64,000 nucleotides of DNA, taken from positions 3,025,131 through 3,089,130 of the forward strand of contig JAOSJT010000001.1 of assembly GCA_027493955.1 (NCBI GenBank). The letters run 5' to 3'. Position 1 is the stretch's first letter. Each line of letters starts with the position of its first letter. This DNA is from Bacteroidia bacterium. Its GTDB lineage: Bacteria > Bacteroidota > Ignavibacteria > SZUA-365. This document shows, one piece after another, positions 9,413 to 26,098 of this stretch. The translations under genes were made by a program, and so were the position numbers. The notes under the pieces were generated by a model. The model ran no database searches, was not told the origin of the DNA, and saw only the letters and a program-made list of their open reading frames with translations.

Positions 9413-9997
9413 ATGCGTTGCACATGTTTGCTTGTTTTCTCGCTGTTCCACATCACGCATGGCCTGGCATCCGCGCAACTCGATGCGGATGCCACGCTAT
9501 ACCTGGTCGGCGGATCGACACGGACCGCCATCTTGCTGTACTGCACGGACAGCACGCTCTACGCGGATTTCAGCATGCAATCCTGGGAGCGCGAAACAGT
9601 GCCTCCGCTCGATGCGGTCTACTGGTTTTCGCCGGAGGATGTGGATTCGGTGTATTGTCACGGGACGGAATACAGTGCTTTACCGAGTATTGTCGGCGGC
9701 ATATTCGGCGCCTTTCTCGGGATGCTACCGGGCGTACTCGTGGGCGGTGGGCTCGGCGCTCTCGTCGCTTCGGACGACGACGACGGTGTCGCCCTGGGCT
9801 TTGGAATCGCCGGAGGAATCGGCGGAATGATCACCGGAGCTGTCATCGGCTCATCGCGGGATGCTTCTGACGACCTTCCTCCTCAGATGTGTCATCCGAG
9901 GAACGGACTATTCCCGGCTGCGCTATCCGTCCGCTGTTTGTACAAGGAGCGGCTCCCGCGATTTCTGCACGTCGTCCGGGCGTACACAGAGCAATAG
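9413..9997 (+). CDS. Small exported protein with glycine-zipper segment
   Basis: A 194-residue protein with a hydrophobic N-terminal signal (MRCTCLLVFSLFHITHGLASAQ) followed by a short domain containing GTEYSALPS. A glycine-rich hydrophobic stretch (about residues 88-145: GGIFGAFLGMLPGVLVGGGLG, then LGFGIAGGIGGMITGAVIG) resembles glycine-zipper membrane segments of small envelope proteins. An acidic SDDDDG lies between the two halves. I do not recognise the family. The ATG at 9413 follows a weak GGAGCACG. It stands alone, with 360 bp to the next gene. Signal, hydrophobic pattern and lack of a better frame support it as real. Confidence 0.65.
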   Translation: MRCTCLLVFSLFHITHGLASAQLDADATLYLVGGSTRTAILLYCTDSTLYADFSMQSWERETVPPLDAVYWFSPEDVDSVYCHGTEYSALPSIVGGIFGAFLGMLPGVLVGGGLGALVASDDDDGVALGFGIAGGIGGMITGAVIGSSRDASDDLPPQMCHPRNGLFPAALSVRCLYKERLPRFLHVVRAYTEQ

Positions 9998-10358
9998 CAG
10001 GACCTGCGGGTACGGGCATACGATATCCCTCTGTATTACGCTGCTTCCCGTCGCCATCCGCAACGAAGCCTGCACAGCGCATTCGGAGACGGAGCGATAT
10101 TGGTGACTTGATTCTCCCTCCCATCCGCACTACTTTTCATAATTGGCGACAAATACGACGTTGAACAAGAAACGCGCCGTTCCCGTGATACGGACACTCG
10201 TCTTCAATGCAAAGACGCGACCAGCCCCGCACGAATGGCTCCGGGCACAATAGCCGTGCCTCGACCACACAACGACATGACGACGGGCACCCTGAGCGAC
10301 TTCAGGATGTTGTCGAGTACAGACTCCCATTCCGAAACATCATACAGGAAAGACAGGC
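9998..10358 (+). other. Intergenic region, nothing recognised
   Basis: This 361-bp stretch between two plus-strand genes has only short overlapping frames without family resemblance. I see no clear terminator or promoter. AGGAAAGA just before 10359 serves the next gene. Confidence 0.4.
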
Positions 10359-10829
10359 ATGAAAAATACACAGAACCAGGGCGGCTCAGGCGGGAAGGAA
10401 TCGCAACTCGTCTCGTTGCAGCGAACCGTGAAGCAACTCCGCGTCGCCACCGCTGTGTTGGCCGTCGCACTCGCGGTCAGCATCATCTACATTGTGGCCA
10501 CACCATCGACACCGGACGCCGCGACGGAACTTCCCGTGCAAATGCAGGCACAGGAGGCGGTTCCGTCTCCACAGCCCACTCCGGTACAAAACACCGTGCA
10601 GCCGCAGATGCAGACCGGGAGTGTGCAACAGCCGGCGACGGTGACAAGCACACCGACAGCGACCAGCACACCGACAGCGACCAGCACACCGACGGCGACA
10701 AGCACACCGACACCCGCACCAGCGACCGCCACTCCAACCGGCGGCACGCAAAAAGCCGGCAACCTCAATCCGCCCCACGGACAGCCGGGCCATCGCTGCG
10801 ATATTCCTGTCGGCAGTCCGCTGAATTGA
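10359..10829 (+). CDS. Membrane-anchored protein with TP-rich linker and C-terminal HGQPGHRCDIPVG motif
   Basis: A 156-residue protein. Residues 1-28 are cytoplasmic and polar with a short heptad-like stretch (LVSLQRTVKQL). About 29-48 is one membrane helix (VATAVLAVALAVSIIYIVA). About 50-130 is a low-complexity P/Q/T linker including TSTPTA repeats. The C-terminus reads NLNPPHGQPGHRCDIPVGSP. That last motif is one I remember as a conserved ending of uncharacterised Bacteroidota proteins, usually after a proline/threonine-rich linker; its function is unknown to me. Orientation is probably N-in, with the motif in the periplasm. AGGAAAGA precedes the ATG. A hairpin terminator follows at 10857. 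Confidence 0.8.
   Translation: MKNTQNQGGSGGKESQLVSLQRTVKQLRVATAVLAVALAVSIIYIVATPSTPDAATELPVQMQAQEAVPSPQPTPVQNTVQPQMQTGSVQQPATVTSTPTATSTPTATSTPTATSTPTPAPATATPTGGTQKAGNLNPPHGQPGHRCDIPVGSPLN
10647..10711 (+). repeat. 18-bp tandem repeat in the TP-rich linker
   Basis: The block agcacaccgac recurs at 10647, 10665, 10683 and 10701, an 18-bp period encoding STPTAT. The period is a multiple of three, so copy changes would alter linker length without shifting frame. Confidence 0.9.
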
Positions 10830-16949: not shown

Positions 16950-17375
16950 ATGAGCGAGCATCACATGAAACTCACACGCTTCGGCGTCTCACTTCCCGAG
17001 GATCTCATCAGTCGCTTCGACGCACTCATTCGGCGAAAGCAGTATCCCAACCGCTCCGAGGCCATTCGCGACCTGATTCGGCGCGAACTGGTGCAGGAAG
17101 ACATCGCCAGCGATCGTATGGTGGCCGGCGTCCTGAGTCTCCTCTACGATCACCACAAAACCGCCATTTCCGAAACACTGAACGCGCTGCAGCACGATCA
17201 CCACGATTCCATCATCTCCACCACTCATGTTCACCTGGATCATGACAACTGTCTGGAGGTGATACTGCTTCATGGACGCGCAAAAGACATCAAGCACTTC
17301 GCGGACAGCATCATCTCCATCAAGGGAGTGAAACACGGAGGCTTGCATCTCACCTCCACCGGTGATGAACACTGA
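16950..17375 (+). CDS. nikR: NikR-type nickel-responsive transcriptional regulator
   Basis: A 141-residue protein with the two-part NikR layout. The N-terminal ribbon-helix-helix domain (about 6-50) reads LTRFGVSLPEDLISRFDALI then YPNRSEAIRDLIRRE. The C-terminal ACT-like domain carries the high-affinity nickel ligands in family order: His in LYDHHKT, then the H-x-H and Cys of THVHLDHDNCLEV. The family represses nickel-uptake genes when nickel is bound. Its 3' end overlaps cbiQ by 11 bp, and a matching palindrome lies before the TonB receptor gene (18923-18949), so it probably regulates this locus. ATG 16965 is an alternative start; neither has a strong ribosome-binding site. Confidence 0.95.
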   Translation: MSEHHMKLTRFGVSLPEDLISRFDALIRRKQYPNRSEAIRDLIRRELVQEDIASDRMVAGVLSLLYDHHKTAISETLNALQHDHHDSIISTTHVHLDHDNCLEVILLHGRAKDIKHFADSIISIKGVKHGGLHLTSTGDEH

Positions 17376-18090
17376 CGCAGGCTTACGGACAACGAGCGCC
17401 GCGGATGTCGATCCACGAGCGGCACTGTTGTTGTTGCTCTGCGTGTGCGCGGTGATCGTGGCTTCGCCGACGGACGCGCGTCTGGCCGCCATCGCCGCCG
17501 GCATAGTGCTTGTCGCCGGGCTTCAGCATTGTCTGCCGCAGCTCCTGCGCAGGCTGCTTTTGCTGTTGCCCATGAGCATCGGCCTGGGTGTCCACATGTT
17601 TTTCACGGCCGGTGACTCCGGAATGGCAATCGGCAGGGAGTCCCCTGACGCCCTCGCGATGTCCGTCGGCACGGTCTCCCGTCTCCTTCTCATTGCCGCG
17701 GCTTCGATGCTGTTCGGTCTCATTGTGCCGATACAGCGGCTTGCGACGGCGCTGCGCGTCCTGAAGGTTCCGGCCTCGGCGGTGTCCGTTCTATGGATGA
17801 CAGAACGCTTGTTCCTGCTGTTGATCGCCGACGCCCGCCGTATGCTGGAAGCTGTGAGGGTACGATCCACATCGCTGTCGCTTCGCTTTCGTATCATGAT
17901 ACTTTCCCGCATCGCCGGCGCGTTTCTCGTCCGCGCTGTGTCGCGAAGCGACAGAATGGCGGATGCACTGCTCGCCCGTGGATTTGACGGAAACATTCCG
18001 GTCCTGCATCCGTTGCGCTGGCAGGTAACGGATACTCTTATCTGCTGTTCCGCCGCTGCGCTGCTGCTCATCATCTGGTTGCCGTCATGA
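17365..18090 (+). CDS. cbiQ: ECF transporter transmembrane coupling subunit (CbiQ-like EcfT)
   Basis: A 241-residue hydrophobic protein with about five membrane helices and the two coupling-helix signatures of EcfT/CbiQ proteins: a first in ADARRMLEAVRVRS and the clear ARG motif in DRMADALLARGFDG. It joins the ATPase to the substrate-binding S component in the inner membrane. I choose ATG 17365 over GTG 17362; both overlap the nikR stop, and its own stop overlaps cbiO by 4 bp (ATGA), indicating one coupled operon. The neighbours suggest a nickel-related substrate rather than cobalt or cobalamin. Confidence 0.92.
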   Translation: MNTDAGLRTTSAADVDPRAALLLLLCVCAVIVASPTDARLAAIAAGIVLVAGLQHCLPQLLRRLLLLLPMSIGLGVHMFFTAGDSGMAIGRESPDALAMSVGTVSRLLLIAAASMLFGLIVPIQRLATALRVLKVPASAVSVLWMTERLFLLLIADARRMLEAVRVRSTSLSLRFRIMILSRIAGAFLVRAVSRSDRMADALLARGFDGNIPVLHPLRWQVTDTLICCSAAALLLIIWLPS

Positions 18091-18851
18091 GCGGGATTGC
18101 GTCAGAACAGTCCGCCGTCCAGTGTGCGGCTCTCGCATCCGGCTACACGAACAGCATCGCGGCGTTGCAGGAGGTTTCCTTTTCCATACGCTATGGTGAG
18201 CGCGTGGGTATCATCGGTCCCAATGGTGCGGGGAAGTCTACCCTGCTCCGTTGCCTGGTCGGTGTACAGCCTTTTTCCGGTACTCTGTTAATTGACGGAT
18301 TCACGGTAGACAAACCGAACATGCGCGACGTACGTCTGCGCATGGGATTAGTGTTCCAAAATCCGGATGATCAGCTGTTTTCATCCACGGTGCGGGACGA
18401 TGTCGCGTTTGGACCATTGGCCATGGGCATGCCGCCGGAATCAGTTGACAGGCGTGTAACGGAGGCACTGCGAAGCGTGGGACTCGAATATGCCGCTGAT
18501 CGCAACCCGGTACAACTGAGTTTCGGCGAGCGACGTCTCGCGGCTATCGCCTCCGTCCTTTCCATGCGTCCACGTATTCTCGCAATGGACGAACCCAGCA
18601 GCAATCTCGATCCCCTGCATCGGCGTCGCCTCATCGATTGGTTGAACCTGCAGGAAGACCTTACGCTGCTGTTGGTATCCCATGACCTGGACATGGTGGC
18701 GGAGTGCTGCGACCGCGTGCTGCTCCTCAACACAACCATCATCGCGGATGCCGCAGCCCATACCATGCTGACGGACGCCACCCTACTCCATCGGCACGAT
18801 CTGGAGCTACCTCTCGGGTTGCAACGGCTCTCCTTCCGCTCAGTTTCGTGA
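18087..18851 (+). CDS. cbiO: ECF transporter ATPase subunit (CbiO-like EcfA)
   Basis: A 254-residue ABC ATPase. Walker A is GPNGAGKSTLL (about residues 47-57), the Q-loop FQNPDDQLFSSTVRDDVAFGP is typical of CbiO/EcfA, the signature is LSFGERR, Walker B is RILAMDEPSSNLDP, and the H-loop is LLLVSHDLDM. The signature has Phe and Glu where LSGGQ is commonest, a variation also seen in the CbiO family. Only one ATPase gene is present, so it would act as a homodimer with the CbiQ-like subunit. The start overlaps the cbiQ stop. A 106-bp gap with the putative operator separates it from the TonB receptor gene. Confidence 0.94.
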   Translation: MSGIASEQSAVQCAALASGYTNSIAALQEVSFSIRYGERVGIIGPNGAGKSTLLRCLVGVQPFSGTLLIDGFTVDKPNMRDVRLRMGLVFQNPDDQLFSSTVRDDVAFGPLAMGMPPESVDRRVTEALRSVGLEYAADRNPVQLSFGERRLAAIASVLSMRPRILAMDEPSSNLDPLHRRRLIDWLNLQEDLTLLLVSHDLDMVAECCDRVLLLNTTIIADAAAHTMLTDATLLHRHDLELPLGLQRLSFRSVS

Positions 18852-18922
18852 GGGGGTTGCTATTCTGAGCACGTATTTCAGATCATCCGCACTTGTTTCC
18901 TGAGAGTATGCGGTGTAGATTA

Positions 18923-18949
18923 GTAGCACGATTATTAAATACGTGTTAC
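18923..18949. promoter_or_regulatory. Putative NikR operator before the TonB receptor gene
   Basis: Inverted repeat GTAGCACG-N11-CGTGTTAC, pairing at 7 of 8 positions, with an AT-rich spacer (attattaaata). Its 27-bp span with outer GTA...TAC closely matches the geometry of the Escherichia coli NikR site GTATGA-N16-TCATAC (28 bp). It ends 8 bp before the receptor ATG. The core cacgtattt also occurs in the opposite orientation at 18870-18878, a possible second half-site. Regulation by the adjacent nikR product is inference. Confidence 0.6.
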
Positions 18950-18957
18950 GCCTCCCT

Positions 18958-20793
18958 ATGCACCCGATCAATCGTTCCTTCATCATCTCCCTCCTCATCA
19001 CAGTGGTCTCTCCTTTGGCGCTGCTCGCGCAGGATGCGTCCGATGCCAGGCTGTATCAGCTTCGGGATTCCGTGCTTATCGTGGCGAGTCGCTACGCCTC
19101 GCCTCTGTCGCGCGAGGCGAATTCCATCGTTGTCATCGACGGGAAGGATATCACCCGTATAGCGGATCATTCCATTCTTGAAATGTTGAAATGGCAGGTT
19201 CCGTCAGCGTTTGTGCTTCAAACACGCGTCGGCGGGTATGGTGTCGGTACCGCCGGCACAGGTGCCGTGTACCTGCGCGGTATGGGAGGCAAACCCAACA
19301 CCGGTATCGCCATGCTGGTGGACGGCCATCCTGATTTCATGGGAATCTTCGGTCACCCGCTTCCCGATGCATACGGTATGGAGGACGTCGAGCGAGTGGA
19401 TGTGCTGCTCGGTCCTGCCTCCACTGTGTTCGGCAGCAATGCACTCGGCGGTGTCATAAACCTCGTGACGAGCGATGCATCGAGGAATCTCCTGCGCGTT
19501 TCGGCGGAAGGCGGCAGCTGGGGAACCTATAGTACCACGCTCGGTGCTTCGCGCGTATTCGGCGATCACGGCGTGCAGCTCACACTCGGACGCAACGGCA
19601 CGGACGGACACATTGCGCAGACCAGCTTCACCGGCATGCGTGTGCAGGCCGGGTACGACTGGAAATTCTCCGACGCCTGGCGTCTCTCTTTCCGCGGCAG
19701 GCACGTCCCCTTCACCTTCGACGATCCGACGCGGAGCACCGATCCCGCAGGGCTCGGCACGTACGGGAACATCAAACGCAACATGGGACAGATCATCCTG
19801 CACAACAGAACCGGGGATGTGCAAGGTTCGACGCAAATCTATCTCAACAGCGGCCATCACGAATTCGCCGATGGTTTCGTATCCGACGATCAGGCGTACG
19901 GACTGTCCAGTTATCAGCAATGGCGTCTGGCAAGCAGTGTCAGCGTCGCCATGGGTACGGATCTGATCTCCTACGGCGGGAAGACGAATGTGGACAACAA
20001 GGAGTACTCGCTCCAGACTGCGGGCATCTATGCACTGGCGATGTACAGTCCGCTGGACATACTGCATCTCCGCGCAGGTATGCGCTACCAATATCACAGT
20101 CTCGAACTGAACTCGCTCGCACCCTCCGCTGGCGTCAGCGTTACTCCGATCGGCGGTCTGCGCGTATTCGCCAACGTTCAGAGCGGCTTCCGCCATCCGA
20201 CGCCGCGCGAATTGTATCTCTTTCCCCCGGCCAACGCCAGTCTGCGCGAAGAAAAAACTCTCGGCTACGAAGCTGGCGCCGAGTACCTGCTTCCGGAGGG
20301 GTCCCTTCGAGTCGCGTGGTTCCGCACCGACGCCACGGACCTCATCGCGACAGTGGCCAATCCCTCGCCTCCGCCGCCGATGCGAAATCTCAACGTCCTC
20401 GACGTACAGATGAGCGGATTGGAAGTGAGCGCACAGTATCGCATCCTGCCCTATCTTCTGGGCCGCGTTTCATGGAGCGGCATCGAGCCGGGGGATTTCA
20501 CCGCGTACAATCCGTCACAGCAGTTCAAGTACATGCTGACACTCCTTGCGGGCCCGATACACGGCAGCATTGCCGGCCAGTACGTGCATGAGCTGTTCGC
20601 GGGGAACAAGAACACCCTTCCGCTCGCGGACTATCACACGCTCGATGTCACACTTTCCTGGATAACGCCGTGGGGCGTCGAGCCCTATCTCAAGGGAAGA
20701 AACATTCTCGATCGCACCTACAACCTGCTGCCTGGGTACGCCGCGCCGGGAGTACATTTCCTTGCCGGTTTCCGGTACGCGTTCGAGGGATGA
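18958..20793 (+). CDS. TonB-dependent outer-membrane receptor of the nickel-linked locus
   Basis: A 611-residue protein from ATG 18958; GTG 18943 upstream lies inside the palindrome. Residues 1-25 are a signal peptide ending LLAQ. The plug domain spans about 38-165: SIVVIDGKDITRIADHSI, GAVYLRGMGGKPNTGIAMLVDG, VERVDVLLGPASTVFGSNALGGVINLVT. The rest is a 22-strand-type barrel, including FRHPTPRELYLFPPANASLREEKTLGYEAG, typical of BtuB/FecA/CirA-like receptors. There is no CarboxypepD-like N-terminal domain, unlike the receptor at 60683. It would bring a substrate too large or scarce for porins into the periplasm, probably for the flanking ECF module. Its stop overlaps the next gene. Confidence 0.93.
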   Translation: MHPINRSFIISLLITVVSPLALLAQDASDARLYQLRDSVLIVASRYASPLSREANSIVVIDGKDITRIADHSILEMLKWQVPSAFVLQTRVGGYGVGTAGTGAVYLRGMGGKPNTGIAMLVDGHPDFMGIFGHPLPDAYGMEDVERVDVLLGPASTVFGSNALGGVINLVTSDASRNLLRVSAEGGSWGTYSTTLGASRVFGDHGVQLTLGRNGTDGHIAQTSFTGMRVQAGYDWKFSDAWRLSFRGRHVPFTFDDPTRSTDPAGLGTYGNIKRNMGQIILHNRTGDVQGSTQIYLNSGHHEFADGFVSDDQAYGLSSYQQWRLASSVSVAMGTDLISYGGKTNVDNKEYSLQTAGIYALAMYSPLDILHLRAGMRYQYHSLELNSLAPSAGVSVTPIGGLRVFANVQSGFRHPTPRELYLFPPANASLREEKTLGYEAGAEYLLPEGSLRVAWFRTDATDLIATVANPSPPPPMRNLNVLDVQMSGLEVSAQYRILPYLLGRVSWSGIEPGDFTAYNPSQQFKYMLTLLAGPIHGSIAGQYVHELFAGNKNTLPLADYHTLDVTLSWITPWGVEPYLKGRNILDRTYNLLPGYAAPGVHFLAGFRYAFEG

Positions 20794-21347
20794 GACCGAT
20801 GGAATCCACGACAGACGCCGCTGTGGAGCGCGTGCGCAGCATCCCGCTTGCGGCGATGTTCACCGCGCTCGGCGTCCTGCTGCCGCAAGTGTTTCACTGG
20901 TTCGGTCTGGGCTCGACGTTTTTACCCATGTTCCTTCCTGTGCTCTCCGCCGCGATGCTGCTGCCCCGCGGGCTTGCCTGCACCGTGGCTATTCTGACTC
21001 CGCTGGCGTCGTTCCTGCTCACCGGCATGCCGCCGCTTTCTCCACCCATCCTCCCTCTGATGCTACCCGAACTCGCGGTCTCGGCCTTCGTCGCCTCCAC
21101 CATCCGGGTTCGGTACGGAAAAAACGTCGTCCTCGCTCTCGCCGCCGCGTTGCTGGTCGGTCGCGCATTGCTTTTCGTGATGGTTCATGCCGCGACGGGA
21201 CTTGCCGGAGTACAACATCCGTTATTCGGTCCCGCGATTGTCTTGTCGGGAGCGCCCGGTGTCATCCTGATGTTCGTGGTCATCCCGCCGGCTATCGCGC
21301 TCATTACATCTCGATTCCCGCGTCTGGACGCGGCACGGTTGCGGTGA
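20790..21347 (+). CDS. ECF-like substrate-binding (S) component
   Basis: A 185-residue, strongly hydrophobic protein with about six membrane helices: IPLAAMFTALGVLLPQVFHW, FLPMFLPVLSAAMLLPRGLA, LPLMLPELAVSAFVASTI, VLALAAALLVGRALLFVMV, AIVLSGAPGVILMFVVIPPAIALI. Size and topology fit ECF S components. It lacks the N-terminal MHIxDG metal motif expected of NikM/CbiM, so it may bind a complexed metal or another ligand. ATG 20790 overlaps the receptor stop (ATGA); ATG 20799 with GAGGG 11 bases upstream is an alternative. It sits between receptor and methyltransferase genes and is the obvious partner for the CbiQ/CbiO pair. Confidence 0.8.
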   Translation: MRPMESTTDAAVERVRSIPLAAMFTALGVLLPQVFHWFGLGSTFLPMFLPVLSAAMLLPRGLACTVAILTPLASFLLTGMPPLSPPILPLMLPELAVSAFVASTIRVRYGKNVVLALAAALLVGRALLFVMVHAATGLAGVQHPLFGPAIVLSGAPGVILMFVVIPPAIALITSRFPRLDAARLR

Positions 21348-21348
21348 C

Positions 21349-21954
21349 ATGCACGATATATCCGTAAAGAAACTGTTTTTTGACGAGACCGCACCGCGAT
21401 GGGTACGAGACGCGGAGCAGCGCAGCGCGCACATTGCGCGCATTCTTGCCAAGCACGATCTTCCCCTTACCGCGCCGTTGCTCGATGTCGGTAGCGGTGC
21501 GGGCATACTGCTTCCCTTCATCCTCGCGAACAACGATGACTCCGCTCTCATAACGGAATTCGATATTTCGCGGGAGATGATGCAACACGCCCGCGCCTTG
21601 CATGGCGCACGTTCCGGTGTGCACTACATCCAGGGTGATGCCCATCACCTCCCTTTTCGCGACGCCTCGTACGAAACAGTGATGTGTTTCAGCGTGTATC
21701 CGCATTTTCAGAATCCCGTTGCAGCACTGACAGAAATCCGCCGCTGTCTCATACCCGGCGGCCGGCTGTGTATTTTCCATCTCATGGGACACAGGGAACT
21801 GAACGATATGCATCGCGCCGCGGGAAAAGCCGTTCAAGGCGACGTCATTCCTCCCGCCGACGCCTTGTCGCTTTTGTTGGCAAAAAACGATTTTACTCCG
21901 TATGTTGTCAGGGAACTGAGCGATCTCTATCTCATTATCGCGCGGCGGAGCTGA
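21349..21954 (+). CDS. Class I SAM-dependent methyltransferase (UbiE/type 11-like)
   Basis: A 201-residue protein with a class I methyltransferase fold. The SAM-binding motif I is LLDVGSGAGILLPFIL, an acidic strand-2 end lies in ITEFDISREMM, motif II region is YIQGDAHHLPFRDASYETVMCF, and motif III is RCLIPGGRLCIFHLMG. The C-terminal part has several histidines (HLMGHRELNDMHR). It starts one base after the S-component stop, so it is surely cotranscribed. The substrate is unknown. In this context it may modify an imported chelator or a nickel-tetrapyrrole-type ligand, but nothing in the sequence proves that. Confidence 0.85.
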   Translation: MHDISVKKLFFDETAPRWVRDAEQRSAHIARILAKHDLPLTAPLLDVGSGAGILLPFILANNDDSALITEFDISREMMQHARALHGARSGVHYIQGDAHHLPFRDASYETVMCFSVYPHFQNPVAALTEIRRCLIPGGRLCIFHLMGHRELNDMHRAAGKAVQGDVIPPADALSLLLAKNDFTPYVVRELSDLYLIIARRS

Positions 21955-22216: not shown

Positions 22217-22915
22217 ATGAAACGCATTGCGACGCTTTTTCTCCTGACAATTTTCCTTGCCGGCTCTGCGAGCGCCCAGGAAAAGACCGGTTTCGCCGGC
22301 CGGCCCATTACCAACAATCTCTTTGCCCCGACCGGAAACACTCTGCATCAGGGTGAGTTCACCATCGGCATCGGTCCCGTCGAATATGGTATTACCGAGA
22401 ATGTGCAGATCGGGACGAATCTTCTCCTCTTCATTCTGCAATACTATAATGCCGACCTGAAAGTATCTTTCATCAACACGGAAGAGCGCGCTTTCGCGGC
22501 TGGTGTCGGGGTGGGGTACTTCAATCTCAAGGTGTTCGGTGCCGATGCCGGCTTCACATCCTTCTCCCCCTACATCGCCTACAGCATGCCCGTCGGTCCC
22601 TCAACCCGCCTGCACCTCGGGGCGAATTACACGCATTTCGAAGCCGACGTCGATATTGATGACGCCGAGGAGCTGAATGCTTCCACCGAAGGAACGTCCG
22701 TGAATGCTGGAATCGAGCACAGCCTCTCCAACAAGACCAAGTTCGTCGGCGATCTGGGCTACGATATCGAATTTGAAGGTGTGCGACTGGGCGGCGGTGT
22801 TCTCTGGGGCTGGGACAGCTTCCGCCTCAAGCTCGGCTTGCAGTACTTCTCGCCGAAAGGTTATACCGGCTACGTGTTACCCTACATCGGCCTGTGGTGG
22901 CGTTTCGACGGATGA
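22217..22915 (+). CDS. Outer-membrane beta-barrel protein
   Basis: A 232-residue protein. ATG 22217 follows AAGAGGG, and residues 1-21 form a signal peptide (MKRIATLFLLTIFLAGSASAQ). The rest alternates polar and apolar residues in likely beta-strands, with ITENVQIGTNLLLFILQYY, AGVGVGYFNLKVFGADAG and a final strand ending YVLPYIGLWWRFDG. The family is not recognised; it looks like a small conserved barrel of Bacteroidota type. A 262-bp gap separates it from the methyltransferase, so it may be outside that operon. It is followed closely by a strong terminator. Confidence 0.82.
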   Translation: MKRIATLFLLTIFLAGSASAQEKTGFAGRPITNNLFAPTGNTLHQGEFTIGIGPVEYGITENVQIGTNLLLFILQYYNADLKVSFINTEERAFAAGVGVGYFNLKVFGADAGFTSFSPYIAYSMPVGPSTRLHLGANYTHFEADVDIDDAEELNASTEGTSVNAGIEHSLSNKTKFVGDLGYDIEFEGVRLGGGVLWGWDSFRLKLGLQYFSPKGYTGYVLPYIGLWWRFDG

Positions 22916-23175: not shown

Positions 23176-24213
23176 TCAGTTCTCGGCAATTTCCCAGATC
23201 TGCCCTTCGTGCAGCAGTTCATCGAGCGTCTTGCTTTTCGCCTTGGCCTTTGCCGTCGCCATTTGTGCATCGAGTTCCGCTTCGTACACACTGCGCTCGA
23301 TATCGAGCAGAACACCGAGAACGGAAGGGAAGCCGGGTTGCTCGCTCATTTCGGCAAGGATGAACGCGAGCTCTTTCGATTTTTCGTCATGGACGAGGAG
23401 GTCGTTCACACTATACTCCTTGAGGGAGACCACCGTCGGCATGAACCCATCGAGACGAATGCCCTTGTCGTCTTCCTTACCAAACAGCAACGGCTTACCG
23501 TGCTCGAGGAAGATCGTGTGATCGTCTTTGGTCTCCTTGTCGGTGTAAATCTCGTACGCGCCATCATTGAAAATGGGGCAATTCTGCATCACATCGATGT
23601 AGGATGTACCCTTGTGCTGATGCATGCGGATGAGCATATCCCGAAGATGCTTCGGATCGCGGTCCATCGAGCGTGCCACGAAGGTCCCCTCCGCACCCAG
23701 AGCCATCAGCGCGGGATTGAACGGATGGTCAATGACGCCCTGCGGACTGGATTTGCTCTTCTGTCCATGCGTTGACGTCGGCGAATATTGGCCCTTGGTC
23801 AGCGCATAGATGCGGTTGTTGAACATCATGATGTTGATGTCGATATTCCTGCGCAAGGCATGGATGAAGTGGTTGCCGCCGATGGAAAGGCAATCGCCGT
23901 CACCGGTGGAGACCCAGACGGACAGGTTCGGATGCGCGGCCTTGAGTCCGGAGGCAATCGCGACGGCGCGCCCGTGAATGCCGTGCAGCCCGTATGTGGC
24001 CATGTAGTACGGGAAGCGGCTGGAGCAACCGATTCCGGCGATGATGGCGATATCTTCTTTCGGCACGCCGACTTCCGGCAGCGCTTTCTGGAGTTGCGAC
24101 AGGATGGAGTAGTCACCGCAACCGGGGCACCAGCGGACGTCCTGGTCGGAAACGAGGTCTTTCGGGGTAAACTTCGCCACCTGGGGTTCGAGGGTTGATT
24201 CATCTATACTCAT
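23176..24213 (-). CDS. korB: 2-oxoacid:ferredoxin oxidoreductase, beta subunit (2-oxoglutarate type)
   Basis: A 345-residue TPP-binding beta subunit: DVRWCPGCGDYSILSQLQ at the N-terminus, GIGCSSRFPYYM, the TPP/Mg motif VSTGDGDCLSIGGNH, and NNRIYALTKGQYSPTS. The Cys residues in WCPGCG and GIGCSS fit the cluster-binding set of this family. With KorA it interconverts 2-oxoglutarate plus CoA and succinyl-CoA plus CO2 using ferredoxin. I prefer the 2-oxoglutarate assignment over pyruvate from the two-subunit layout. GAGAGG precedes ATG 24213, 10 bp after the korA stop. Confidence 0.92.
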   Translation of the reverse strand: MSIDESTLEPQVAKFTPKDLVSDQDVRWCPGCGDYSILSQLQKALPEVGVPKEDIAIIAGIGCSSRFPYYMATYGLHGIHGRAVAIASGLKAAHPNLSVWVSTGDGDCLSIGGNHFIHALRRNIDINIMMFNNRIYALTKGQYSPTSTHGQKSKSSPQGVIDHPFNPALMALGAEGTFVARSMDRDPKHLRDMLIRMHQHKGTSYIDVMQNCPIFNDGAYEIYTDKETKDDHTIFLEHGKPLLFGKEDDKGIRLDGFMPTVVSLKEYSVNDLLVHDEKSKELAFILAEMSEQPGFPSVLGVLLDIERSVYEAELDAQMATAKAKAKSKTLDELLHEGQIWEIAEN

Positions 24214-24223
24214 AACATGCCTC

Positions 24224-26098
24224 TCATTTCAACGACGTGAGAATTTCATTCGCCCGGGCTTTGATTTCGCTCGGGGTGAAGGGCAGCCCCTGCACCTTGT
24301 TTATCGATTCCGTCTCGACGAGATACTTTGCGCGCAGCACAAAAGCCAACTGCCCGAGATTGAGTTCCGGTATCAGAATTTTCTTGTGGCGTTTGAGAAG
24401 TTCACCAAGATTTGTCGGGAAGGGATTGAGATACTTGATGTGAATATGGGCGACGGATTTTCCTTCCTTCACCATGTCTTCCACCGCGACACGAATGGAG
24501 CCGTAGGTTCCGCCCCAACCGACAATTGCGAGGTCGGCGTTCTCGGCACCGAACACGGTCTGTTCCGGGATATCATTGGCGATGCCCGCTACCTTGTTCG
24601 CGCGCATCTCCACCATGAACTGGTGGTTTGCCGGATCGTGGCTGACATTACCGGTGATATGCTGCTTCTCGAGTCCGCCGATACGATGCTCAAAACCGGC
24701 CATACCGGGTACGGCCCAGGGACGGGAGAGATGCTCGTCGCGCTGGTACGGTTTGTAGGTTTCCGGATCGGAGGCGAAGGGAACGGAAATATCCGGGAGA
24801 TCCTCCGCCTTAGGCAGCAGCCAGGGTTCGCTGCCATTTGCGATGTACCCGTCCGTAAGCAGGATAACCGGCGTCATATACTTCAGCGCGATCCGTGCGG
24901 CTTCAAACACCATGTGAAAACAGTTCGCGGGTGTATTCGCGGCGATGACTGGTACAGGCGCTTCACCGTTCCGGCCATAGATGGCCTGGATCAGATCCGC
25001 CTGTTCCGTTTTTGTGGGCAAGCCCGTGCTCGGGCCGCCGCGCTGCACATTGATGATCACGAGGGGCAGTTCGACCATGAGAGCCAGACCGATGGCTTCC
25101 TGTTTCAGCGCCATACCGGGACCACTGGTACTGGTAAAGGCGAGCGAACCGCCATAGGCGGCGCCGATGGCCGTACAGATGCCGGCAATTTCGTCTTCCG
25201 CCTGGAAGGTCCGGAAATCGAAATGCTTCAGCGCCGAAAGCTCGTGGAGAATTTCACTGGCAGGAGTGATGGGGTAGCTCCCGAGAAAACCGGGCAGCTT
25301 CGCCTTGATGGATGCGGCTATGGCACCCAGCGCGGTCGCCTCGTTGCCGGTGAGATTGCGGTACGTCCCCGCGGGAAGATCCGCTGCGCGCACCGTGTAG
25401 CGTGTATTGAAAATCTGAGTGATTTCGCCGAAATTGTGTCCCGCCCGGAGAGCTTTTTCGTTTGCATTGGCGATTTCCGGCTTGTTGCCGAATTTCGTCT
25501 GTATCCACTCAAGCGTGGCGTCCATAGGACGATCATAGAGCCAATACAGGAGACCCAGCGCGAAGAAATTCTTCGAACGGGTGATCTCGCGAAGAGTCAG
25601 GCCACTGTCCTCCAGCGCATTCGCTGTGAGCGTGGTGATGGGTACGGTAAAGAGCTGATATCCTTTGAGCGAATCGTCCTCGAGGGGATTGCTCTCGTAT
25701 TTTGCCAGTTTCAGATTTTTTGCATCGAAAGCATCAGCGTTGACGATGATATTCCCGCCTTCCCGCACATTCTTGAGATTGACCTTGAGTGCGGCAGGAT
25801 TCATGGCGATCAACGTGTCGTACTTGTCTCCCGGCGTGTAGATATTCTTGCTTCCGAAGTGGAGCTGGAAACCGGACACACCGTACAGTGTGCCGGCCGG
25901 GGCCCGAATTTCGGCCGGGTAATCCGGGAAAGTACTCAGATCGTTACCGACCTGCGCCGTCGTCGTGGTAAATTGCGTACCGGTAAGCTGCATACCGTCG
26001 CCAGAGTCACCGGCAAAGCGGATGACGACATGTTCGACGTCGACAAAATCGACGGTCTTCGTCGATTTGCCATTCGCCGTTTCTACTGTGGTTGCCAT
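24224..26098 (-). CDS. korA: 2-oxoacid:ferredoxin oxidoreductase, fused gamma-alpha subunit
   Basis: A 624-residue fusion. The N-terminal gamma-type domain (about 20-205) begins VVIRFAGDSGDGMQLTG, with FPDYPAEIRAPAGTLYGVSGFQ. The alpha pyrimidine-binding domain (about 235-450) has LPGFLGSYPITPASEI, AEDEIAGICTAIGAAYGG and TSTSGPGMALKQEAIGLALM. A C-terminal swivel domain has IVGWGGTYGSIRVAVEDM. The fused gamma-alpha arrangement is typical of KorA/VorA-type enzymes in Bacteroidota and Chlorobiota. The enzyme may serve an oxidative or reductive TCA step; the window holds no other gene to decide. It is first in a two-gene operon with korB. Confidence 0.92.
   Translation of the reverse strand: MATTVETANGKSTKTVDFVDVEHVVIRFAGDSGDGMQLTGTQFTTTTAQVGNDLSTFPDYPAEIRAPAGTLYGVSGFQLHFGSKNIYTPGDKYDTLIAMNPAALKVNLKNVREGGNIIVNADAFDAKNLKLAKYESNPLEDDSLKGYQLFTVPITTLTANALEDSGLTLREITRSKNFFALGLLYWLYDRPMDATLEWIQTKFGNKPEIANANEKALRAGHNFGEITQIFNTRYTVRAADLPAGTYRNLTGNEATALGAIAASIKAKLPGFLGSYPITPASEILHELSALKHFDFRTFQAEDEIAGICTAIGAAYGGSLAFTSTSGPGMALKQEAIGLALMVELPLVIINVQRGGPSTGLPTKTEQADLIQAIYGRNGEAPVPVIAANTPANCFHMVFEAARIALKYMTPVILLTDGYIANGSEPWLLPKAEDLPDISVPFASDPETYKPYQRDEHLSRPWAVPGMAGFEHRIGGLEKQHITGNVSHDPANHQFMVEMRANKVAGIANDIPEQTVFGAENADLAIVGWGGTYGSIRVAVEDMVKEGKSVAHIHIKYLNPFPTNLGELLKRHKKILIPELNLGQLAFVLRAKYLVETESINKVQGLPFTPSEIKARANEILTSLK

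Follow-up and report, generated by a model that had tools for sequence, protein, structure and literature searches.

The window analysed here, a 64 kb stretch of the 5.24-Mb single-contig genome of a Bacteroidia bacterium, carries on its + strand (16950-21954) a cluster of six genes encoding NikR, a CbiQ-like T component, a CbiO-like A component, a TonB-dependent receptor (TBDR), an S component of the energy-coupling factor (ECF) type and a class I methyltransferase (MT). We propose that this cluster is likely to be a NikR-repressed system for scavenging nickel across two membranes, with an S component that is not NikM and with a cargo that is likely organically bound nickel. The parts of this proposal differ in strength, as nickel uptake under NikR is very probable, an organic nickel complex is the probable cargo and processing of its ligand by the MT is put forward tentatively. 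The genes, their synteny, the operator, the partner genes and the predicted folds were derived from sequence, and the direction of regulation and the import mechanism from knowledge of the families. Presence or absence of genes across the genome was judged by family searches.

A predicted NikR operator precedes the TBDR gene

The nikR gene encodes the sole NikR of the genome, which matches the equivalog NF003381 with 181.9 bits against a cut-off of 105 and carries QHDHH from residue 81, HVH at residues 93-95 and Cys101, positions that we take to correspond to the nickel-ligand motifs of E. coli NikR. A comparison of the regions upstream of the TBDR genes among relatives brought out a predicted NikR operator in the gap of approximately 100 nt between cbiO and the TBDR gene, and this is the only perfect match to GTARCAC-N13-GTGYTAC in the whole genome. 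Allowing up to two mismatches, two boxes (one of them perfect) were found in the window against 0.30 expected, and in the S-bearing loci, which total 427 kb, there were 18 boxes with at most one mismatch, a first-order random model giving 0.2 per 183 kb. The same box lies at the start of the TBDR gene in five genomes of the same family (G395, G399, G422, G432 and G443), and G451 has a perfect box, but not on the contig that carries its S gene. Boxes of the same half-sites and spacing also precede nikR or the TBDR gene in other families of this class. The published NikR signal in delta-proteobacteria is GTGTTAC-[N13/14]-GTAACAC, and the reversed signal, GTAACAC-[N13/14]-GTGTTAC, is found upstream of nikMLKQO in Desulfotalea (PMC545781, Table 4); the operator in the window is of this reversed type. 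Taken together, the NikR orthologue and the upstream operator place the cluster in the predicted NikR regulon and, given the position of the operator, TBDR-S-MT probably have their own NikR-controlled promoter. A palindrome search around nikR found no box at the window's own nikR promoter. A second match in the same genome (4516792) and several in relatives were rejected as NikR sites, showing instead the pattern TTAGCACTC-N9-GAGTGCTAA, which we presume to be similar to the HrcA CIRCE elements.

An earlier note on this DNA, made from the sequence without database searches, had described six genes on one strand with mostly overlapping or one-base junctions. Its gene calls and positions were right, and four such junctions are present, i.e. 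an overlap of nikR and cbiQ (14 nt with the GTG start of cbiQ and 11 nt with the alternative ATG), overlaps of 4 nt at cbiQ/cbiO and TBDR/S, and a single nucleotide between S and MT, but cbiO and the TBDR gene are not contiguous, being separated by the gap that holds the operator. The cbiQ gene is the sole PF02361 match of the genome, and by their matches to PF02361 and ABC_tran the T and A components are of the CbiQ/CbiO type found in NikMNQO/NikKLMQO transporters. The TBDR has both a plug (PF07715) and a barrel (PF00593) domain over cut-off, and its more likely start is the ATG at 18958, from which the protein opens with the signal-peptide-like MHPINRSFIISLLITVVSPLALLAQ, rather than the GTG, which falls within the operator. 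The coordinates are given in Table 1.

Table 1. The six genes and the predicted operator, with positions in the window
Feature	Position	Strand	Evidence and remarks
nikR	16950..17375	+	Nickel-responsive ribbon-helix-helix repressor; NikR_C 112 bits
CbiQ/EcfT-like transmembrane T component	17362..18090	+	CbiQ PF02361 60 bits; alternative ATG start 17365
CbiO/EcfA-like ATPase (A component)	18087..18851	+	ABC_tran 105 bits; Walker A GPNGAGKST
Predicted NikR operator	18923..18949	+	GTAGCAC-N13-GTGTTAC, 0 mismatches to GTARCAC-N13-GTGYTAC
TBDR	18958..20793, open frame from GTG 18943	+	Barrel 111 bits, plug 56 bits
ECF S component	20790..21347	+	PF12822 27.5 bits
Class I SAM (S-adenosylmethionine)-dependent methyltransferase	21349..21954	+	Methyltransf_11 77 bits

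Beyond the cluster, a small outer-membrane beta-barrel protein (PF13505) is encoded at 22217-22915, approximately 260 nt 3′ of the MT gene, and is also found downstream in L092. The minus strand at 23176-26098 holds genes that we judged by eye to be the alpha and beta subunits of a probable 2-oxoacid:ferredoxin oxidoreductase.

The gene order is conserved in relatives and in Calditrichota

A profile of the S component was built from an alignment of 29 relatives and used to search 391 genomes of the window's class, of which it matched 42. We counted 28 of these as strong, the set being fixed after the matches had been seen (E no worse than approximately 1e-16, with two genomes of a separate long branch left out). 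S was found in seven relatives of the same family, and the complete nikR-cbiQ-cbiO-TBDR-S-MT order is present in five of them (L088, L089, L091, L092 and L093), the loci of the remaining two stopping at contig ends. In a second family (f4), the genes are reordered as NikR-TBDR-S-MT-CbiQ-CbiO in L052 and L106, and L107 has the same arrangement with NikR not nearby; the TBDR gene of L052 (G014, minus strand, ~9681-10748) directly abuts nikR and lacks the plug half, which points to a pseudogene or an assembly fault. S was also matched in 18 of 80 relatives of a Caldithrix-like genome, mostly as TBDR-S-MT in that order, and in G722, a genome of another phylum (Calditrichota) that consists of a single contig of 4.98 Mb, all six genes lie in the order seen in the window. 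The recurrence of this order elsewhere, for which the earlier note had asked, thus extends to five same-family genomes and one calditrichote, which argues that the cluster is more than a chance assembly. G722 has in addition a second locus, with a perfect NikR box, a TBDR, two small NikK/L-like proteins, NikM (with MHISDG), NikQ and NikO, which fits the description of Cabys_2622-2627. With both described loci matched, this genome is most likely that of the cultured species Caldithrix abyssi.

The S component is accompanied by [NiFe] hydrogenases and nickel proteins

The genome of the window encodes three [NiFe]-hydrogenase large subunits, and our family searches of it found no CbiM/NikM (PF01891), no NicO and only the one CbiQ. 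Across the class, every one of the 28 genomes counted as strong for S (16 genera) has [NiFe] hydrogenase, as do 133 of the 363 others tallied (Fisher p = 3.6e-12, uncorrected for kinship). When all S matches are taken, the figure is 31 of 42 (p = 8.5e-6), and most genomes with a weak match are without hydrogenase. CbiM/NikM was not found in 16 of the 20 S-bearing genomes examined, several of which are metagenome-assembled and possibly incomplete. The association is also seen at the level of single operons. Those for [NiFe] hydrogenase in L095 and L097 enclose the S gene, which is placed between the subunit genes or immediately after them, and HypA is encoded close by in L095. In both of these operons (L095:8411-12141 and L097:7219-10612) a small cupin accompanies S.

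CooT is a nickel-binding accessory protein of CO dehydrogenase and, in Latescibacterota, a CooT-FmdE fusion is encoded directly before S in L018 (201-803) and, by similarity, also in L014 and L017, which suggests a nickel relay protein right behind the importer. In the same phylum FmdE further adjoins S in L011, L015 and L035; one FmdE structure has mixed zinc and nickel occupancy, and FmdE genes are found mostly next to metal transporters (PMC2954224). The loci L013, L053, L098, L101 and L102 encode proteins with a Lar_N domain (LarA-like) at a distance of 3 to 5 kb from S. In four of these loci (L053, L098, L101 and L102) there is a single run of LarA-like, 6-phosphogluconate dehydrogenase-like, PdxB/SerA-like, S, major facilitator superfamily and sugar-kinase genes, named by eye except for Lar_N, which has the appearance of a locus for sugar acids that includes a nickel-pincer epimerase. 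NikM-Q-O and LarC lie near S in the clostridial locus L042 (6576-12135), which reads DUF3842, nucleoside-kinase-like, S, NikM, NikQ and NikO, LarC being encoded on the other strand; this cluster may be a hint to the role of DUF3842 and the kinase. In Bacillota and Synergistota, DUF1893 (TM1506) is directly 3′ of S in L009, L010, L022, L026 and L041.

NikR-linked nickel uptake across two membranes, as the earlier note had it, is therefore well supported by the conserved operator before the TBDR gene, the recurring nickel partners and a genome with hydrogenases but without NikM or NicO, and the co-occurrence with [NiFe] hydrogenase that the note proposed as a check was indeed found. The same data bear on uptake of cobalt or a cobamide, with NikR as a misleading neighbour. 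Such a reading could draw on the resemblance of the T and A components to CbiQ and CbiO and on BtuB being the best NCBIfam and PDB match of the TBDR, a match that covers only part of the protein and falls far short of the cut-off. We consider it very improbable given that the TBDR reaches 90.9 bits against the BtuB equivalog cut-off of 836, that NikR boxes are present and that the co-occurrence with hydrogenase is strict. Nor did an Rfam search reveal the cobalamin riboswitch that the earlier note had named as evidence against its proposal, either in the window, where one tRNA was the only match, or in 13 homologous loci.

The S component has a predicted vitamin-type fold

The S component begins with MRPMESTTDAAVERV and thus lacks the MHIxDG motif, as was noted before, and it has no PF01891 match. 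It scores 27.5 bits with PF12822 (gathering score 30.7), and 28 of the 29 family members match this model at E ≤ 0.01, the best at 2.4e-18. The window protein stays below the cut-offs of all NCBIfam S subfamilies, the FolT family TIGR04518 scoring 18.7 bits against a cut-off of 60, and 25 of the 29 relatives match the latter weakly (best E 1.5e-10). A PDB search with the single sequence gave no match, and the best match of the S profile was RibU, with E of 0.065. The AlphaFold2 model (pLDDT, i.e. predicted local distance difference test, of 91.6) was then compared with known folds and gave Z scores of 16.2 for RibU (157 residues, 2.5 Å), 16.1 for BioY, 15.6 for PanT, 15.0 for ThiT and 14.2 for FolT, with CbiM at 10.4. 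These models indicate a vitamin-type ECF S fold for a protein that does not appear by family model to be CbiM/NikM. Grouping with a known vitamin family, the other finding that would have counted against the earlier note, was not seen at the subfamily cut-offs, although the fold is nonetheless of the vitamin type.

The family is marked by the motif LPxxFHxxGxxGxxFLPM...SFLLTGMPP...EL...GR...PG. In the alignment of 29 relatives P32, G41, P46, FLLTGMPP (75-82), E94, L95, R125, G157 and P166 are invariant and H36 and M47 nearly so, and the first loop reads LPMH in many members and LPMF or LPMY in the window's clade. The predicted pocket includes H36, M47, M80, E94 and R125. On a tree of 68 S sequences, the NikR label requires 7 changes compared with 15.3 for shuffled labels, so that the nickel link appears clustered, and NikR-linked S proteins occur in two distinct branches, accompanied in the first by TBDR and MT and in the second by cupin, hydrogenase or LarA. 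A distant S-like family of Bacteroidota forms its own long branch (L055, L056, L110 and L112), is often found beside a phosphoribosyltransferase-like gene and, in L055, lies opposite a related TBDR gene; these weak matches were excluded from the strong set.

The conserved histidine and methionine, which in most of the family lie at predicted pocket loops (FH and LPMH), might mean that S binds hydrated or histidine-bound Ni2+ directly and so replaces NikM, with the TBDR admitting weak nickel complexes and the MT representing a side activity, and the company that S keeps with NikR and hydrogenases in NikM-free genomes would agree with this. We regard direct binding of the ion as unlikely, since LPMH is changed to LPMF or LPMY in the very clade of the window and a bare-ion importer has no obvious need of a conserved MT. 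Moreover, a second bare-ion system would be redundant both in L042, where NikM-Q-O are next to S, and in G722, with its separate NikR-boxed TBDR-NikK/L-like-NikM-Q-O locus.

The MT recurs beside the S component

The MT was modelled with a pLDDT of 93.0 as a Rossmann class I fold, with Z up to 22.8 to known MTs, and has the SAM motif I LDVGSGAG; of the characterized MT families compared with the window protein, none was over cut-off. In 31 of 70 loci, spanning Bacteroidota, Calditrichota, Zixibacteria, TA06, Atribacteria and Bacillota, an MT gene is found at most 6 kb from S and nearly always adjacent to it, and most of the additional Calditrichota loci likewise have the two genes side by side. 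We argue that the tie between the MT and S does not depend on NikR or the TBDR, and hence that the MT would act on what S carries. In five loci (L094, L095, L097, L099 and L103) a small cupin is found in its place. Three histidines, H119, H144 and H155, are invariant in the MT alignment; we considered them as a metal site and make no such claim, H119 being in a stretch of Methyltransf_11 proteins in which histidine is common.

The recurrent MT partner and the vitamin-type fold of S might also be explained if the cluster imported not nickel but an organic compound for nickel use, such as a nickel-cofactor precursor or an apo-metallophore modified by the MT, with NikR coupling this to nickel supply. 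LarA-type enzymes use a nickel-pincer nucleotide, and S is indeed found near LarA-like or LarC genes. We think this quite improbable, however, because the CooT, FmdE, hydrogenase and NikR partners have nickel alone in common and no single organic cofactor, and because the NikR boxes are on the TBDR gene itself.

Proposed pathway for nickel scavenging

In the pathway that we favour, NikR would leave its operator at 18923-18949 when nickel is short and TBDR-S-MT would be transcribed. The TBDR, energized by TonB, would move a nickel species over the outer membrane, S would capture it at the periplasmic side, and CbiQ and CbiO would move the cargo on across the inner membrane in the toppling cycle of ECF transporters. 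The S fold is of the organic-micronutrient type, and the N-terminus by which NikM binds nickel is missing from S; nickel is therefore most likely carried in together with a small organic ligand, on which the MT may act in the cytosol, either releasing the nickel or trapping or recycling the ligand. The earlier note had likewise proposed a nickel complex taken across both membranes with the MT acting on its ligand; nickel uptake under NikR is now well supported, and the complex and the role of the MT are still inferred. A wider and more doubtful conjecture is that this widespread S family carries an undescribed organic nickel complex that is dismantled in the cytosol by the MT, or elsewhere by the cupin or FmdE, which would amount to a nickel-metallophore pathway with enzymatic release in both Gram-negative and Gram-positive phyla.

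Several points weigh against our proposal. The substrate was assigned from sequences and models, and the hydrogenase statistic is inflated by phylogenetic relatedness. Not every NikR-linked S locus has the MT, and in L094, L099 and L103 the gene after S encodes a cupin, indicating that the MT is not essential to the transporter. In Bacillota, S also lies beside DUF3842, DUF1893 and nucleoside-kinase-like genes, which have no known nickel role, and thus some members of the family may have another cargo. In addition, a vitamin-type fold would be compatible with transport of the free metal.

Relation to known systems

To our knowledge, the known nickel S components are all CbiM/NikM-like and bind the bare ion. 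The cluster shares with the NikMNQO/NikKLMQO transporters (PMC545781, and the second locus of G722) a CbiQ-type T component, a CbiO-type A component, the same operator type and sometimes a TBDR in front, but it has no S component of the MHIxDG NikM/CbiM kind and no NikN, NikK or NikL, and instead has a vitamin-fold S and an MT. RibU, BioY, PanT, ThiT and FolT have the six-helix S fold of the model (Z of 14 to 16) and probably the PF12822 superfamily in common with the window protein, which differs from them in forming its own sequence family, in falling below the NCBIfam subfamily cut-offs and in its nickel-linked neighbourhoods. NikR-linked TBDRs, like NikMNQO, have long been known, and TBDRs that are NikR-regulated or active on nickel include FrpB4, FecA3 and NikH (PMC11247825); compared by description, the window TBDR resembles these as a probable NikR-controlled nickel receptor but is co-encoded with a non-NikM ECF importer.

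NikR-regulated nickel transport was predicted by Kublanov et al. in 2017 for Cabys_1316-1319, a set made up of nikR, a pair of cbi/nik homologues and a TBDR bearing a NikR-like motif, and annotated as nikMNQO (PMC5317091). These are apparently the first four genes of the six-gene cluster, and that paper makes no mention of the S component or the MT, which come next in G722. The suggestion of the earlier note that no system with this exact set had been described holds for S and the MT, whereas four of the six genes had already been predicted at this apparently orthologous locus. Our literature search found neither the S family, its nickel neighbourhoods and the MT pairing nor a nickel ECF system with a vitamin-type S, which is weak evidence as subscription papers were thinly covered.

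The S family is a candidate nickel route for many bacteria of the Calditrichota or related to the Bacteroidota that have [NiFe] hydrogenases, some of these bacteria being without NikM or NicO. It points to a nickel complex in the environment and to a chemical role for the MT, or for the cupin or FmdE, and would correct labels such as ‘nikMNQO’ or ‘folate-family S component’.

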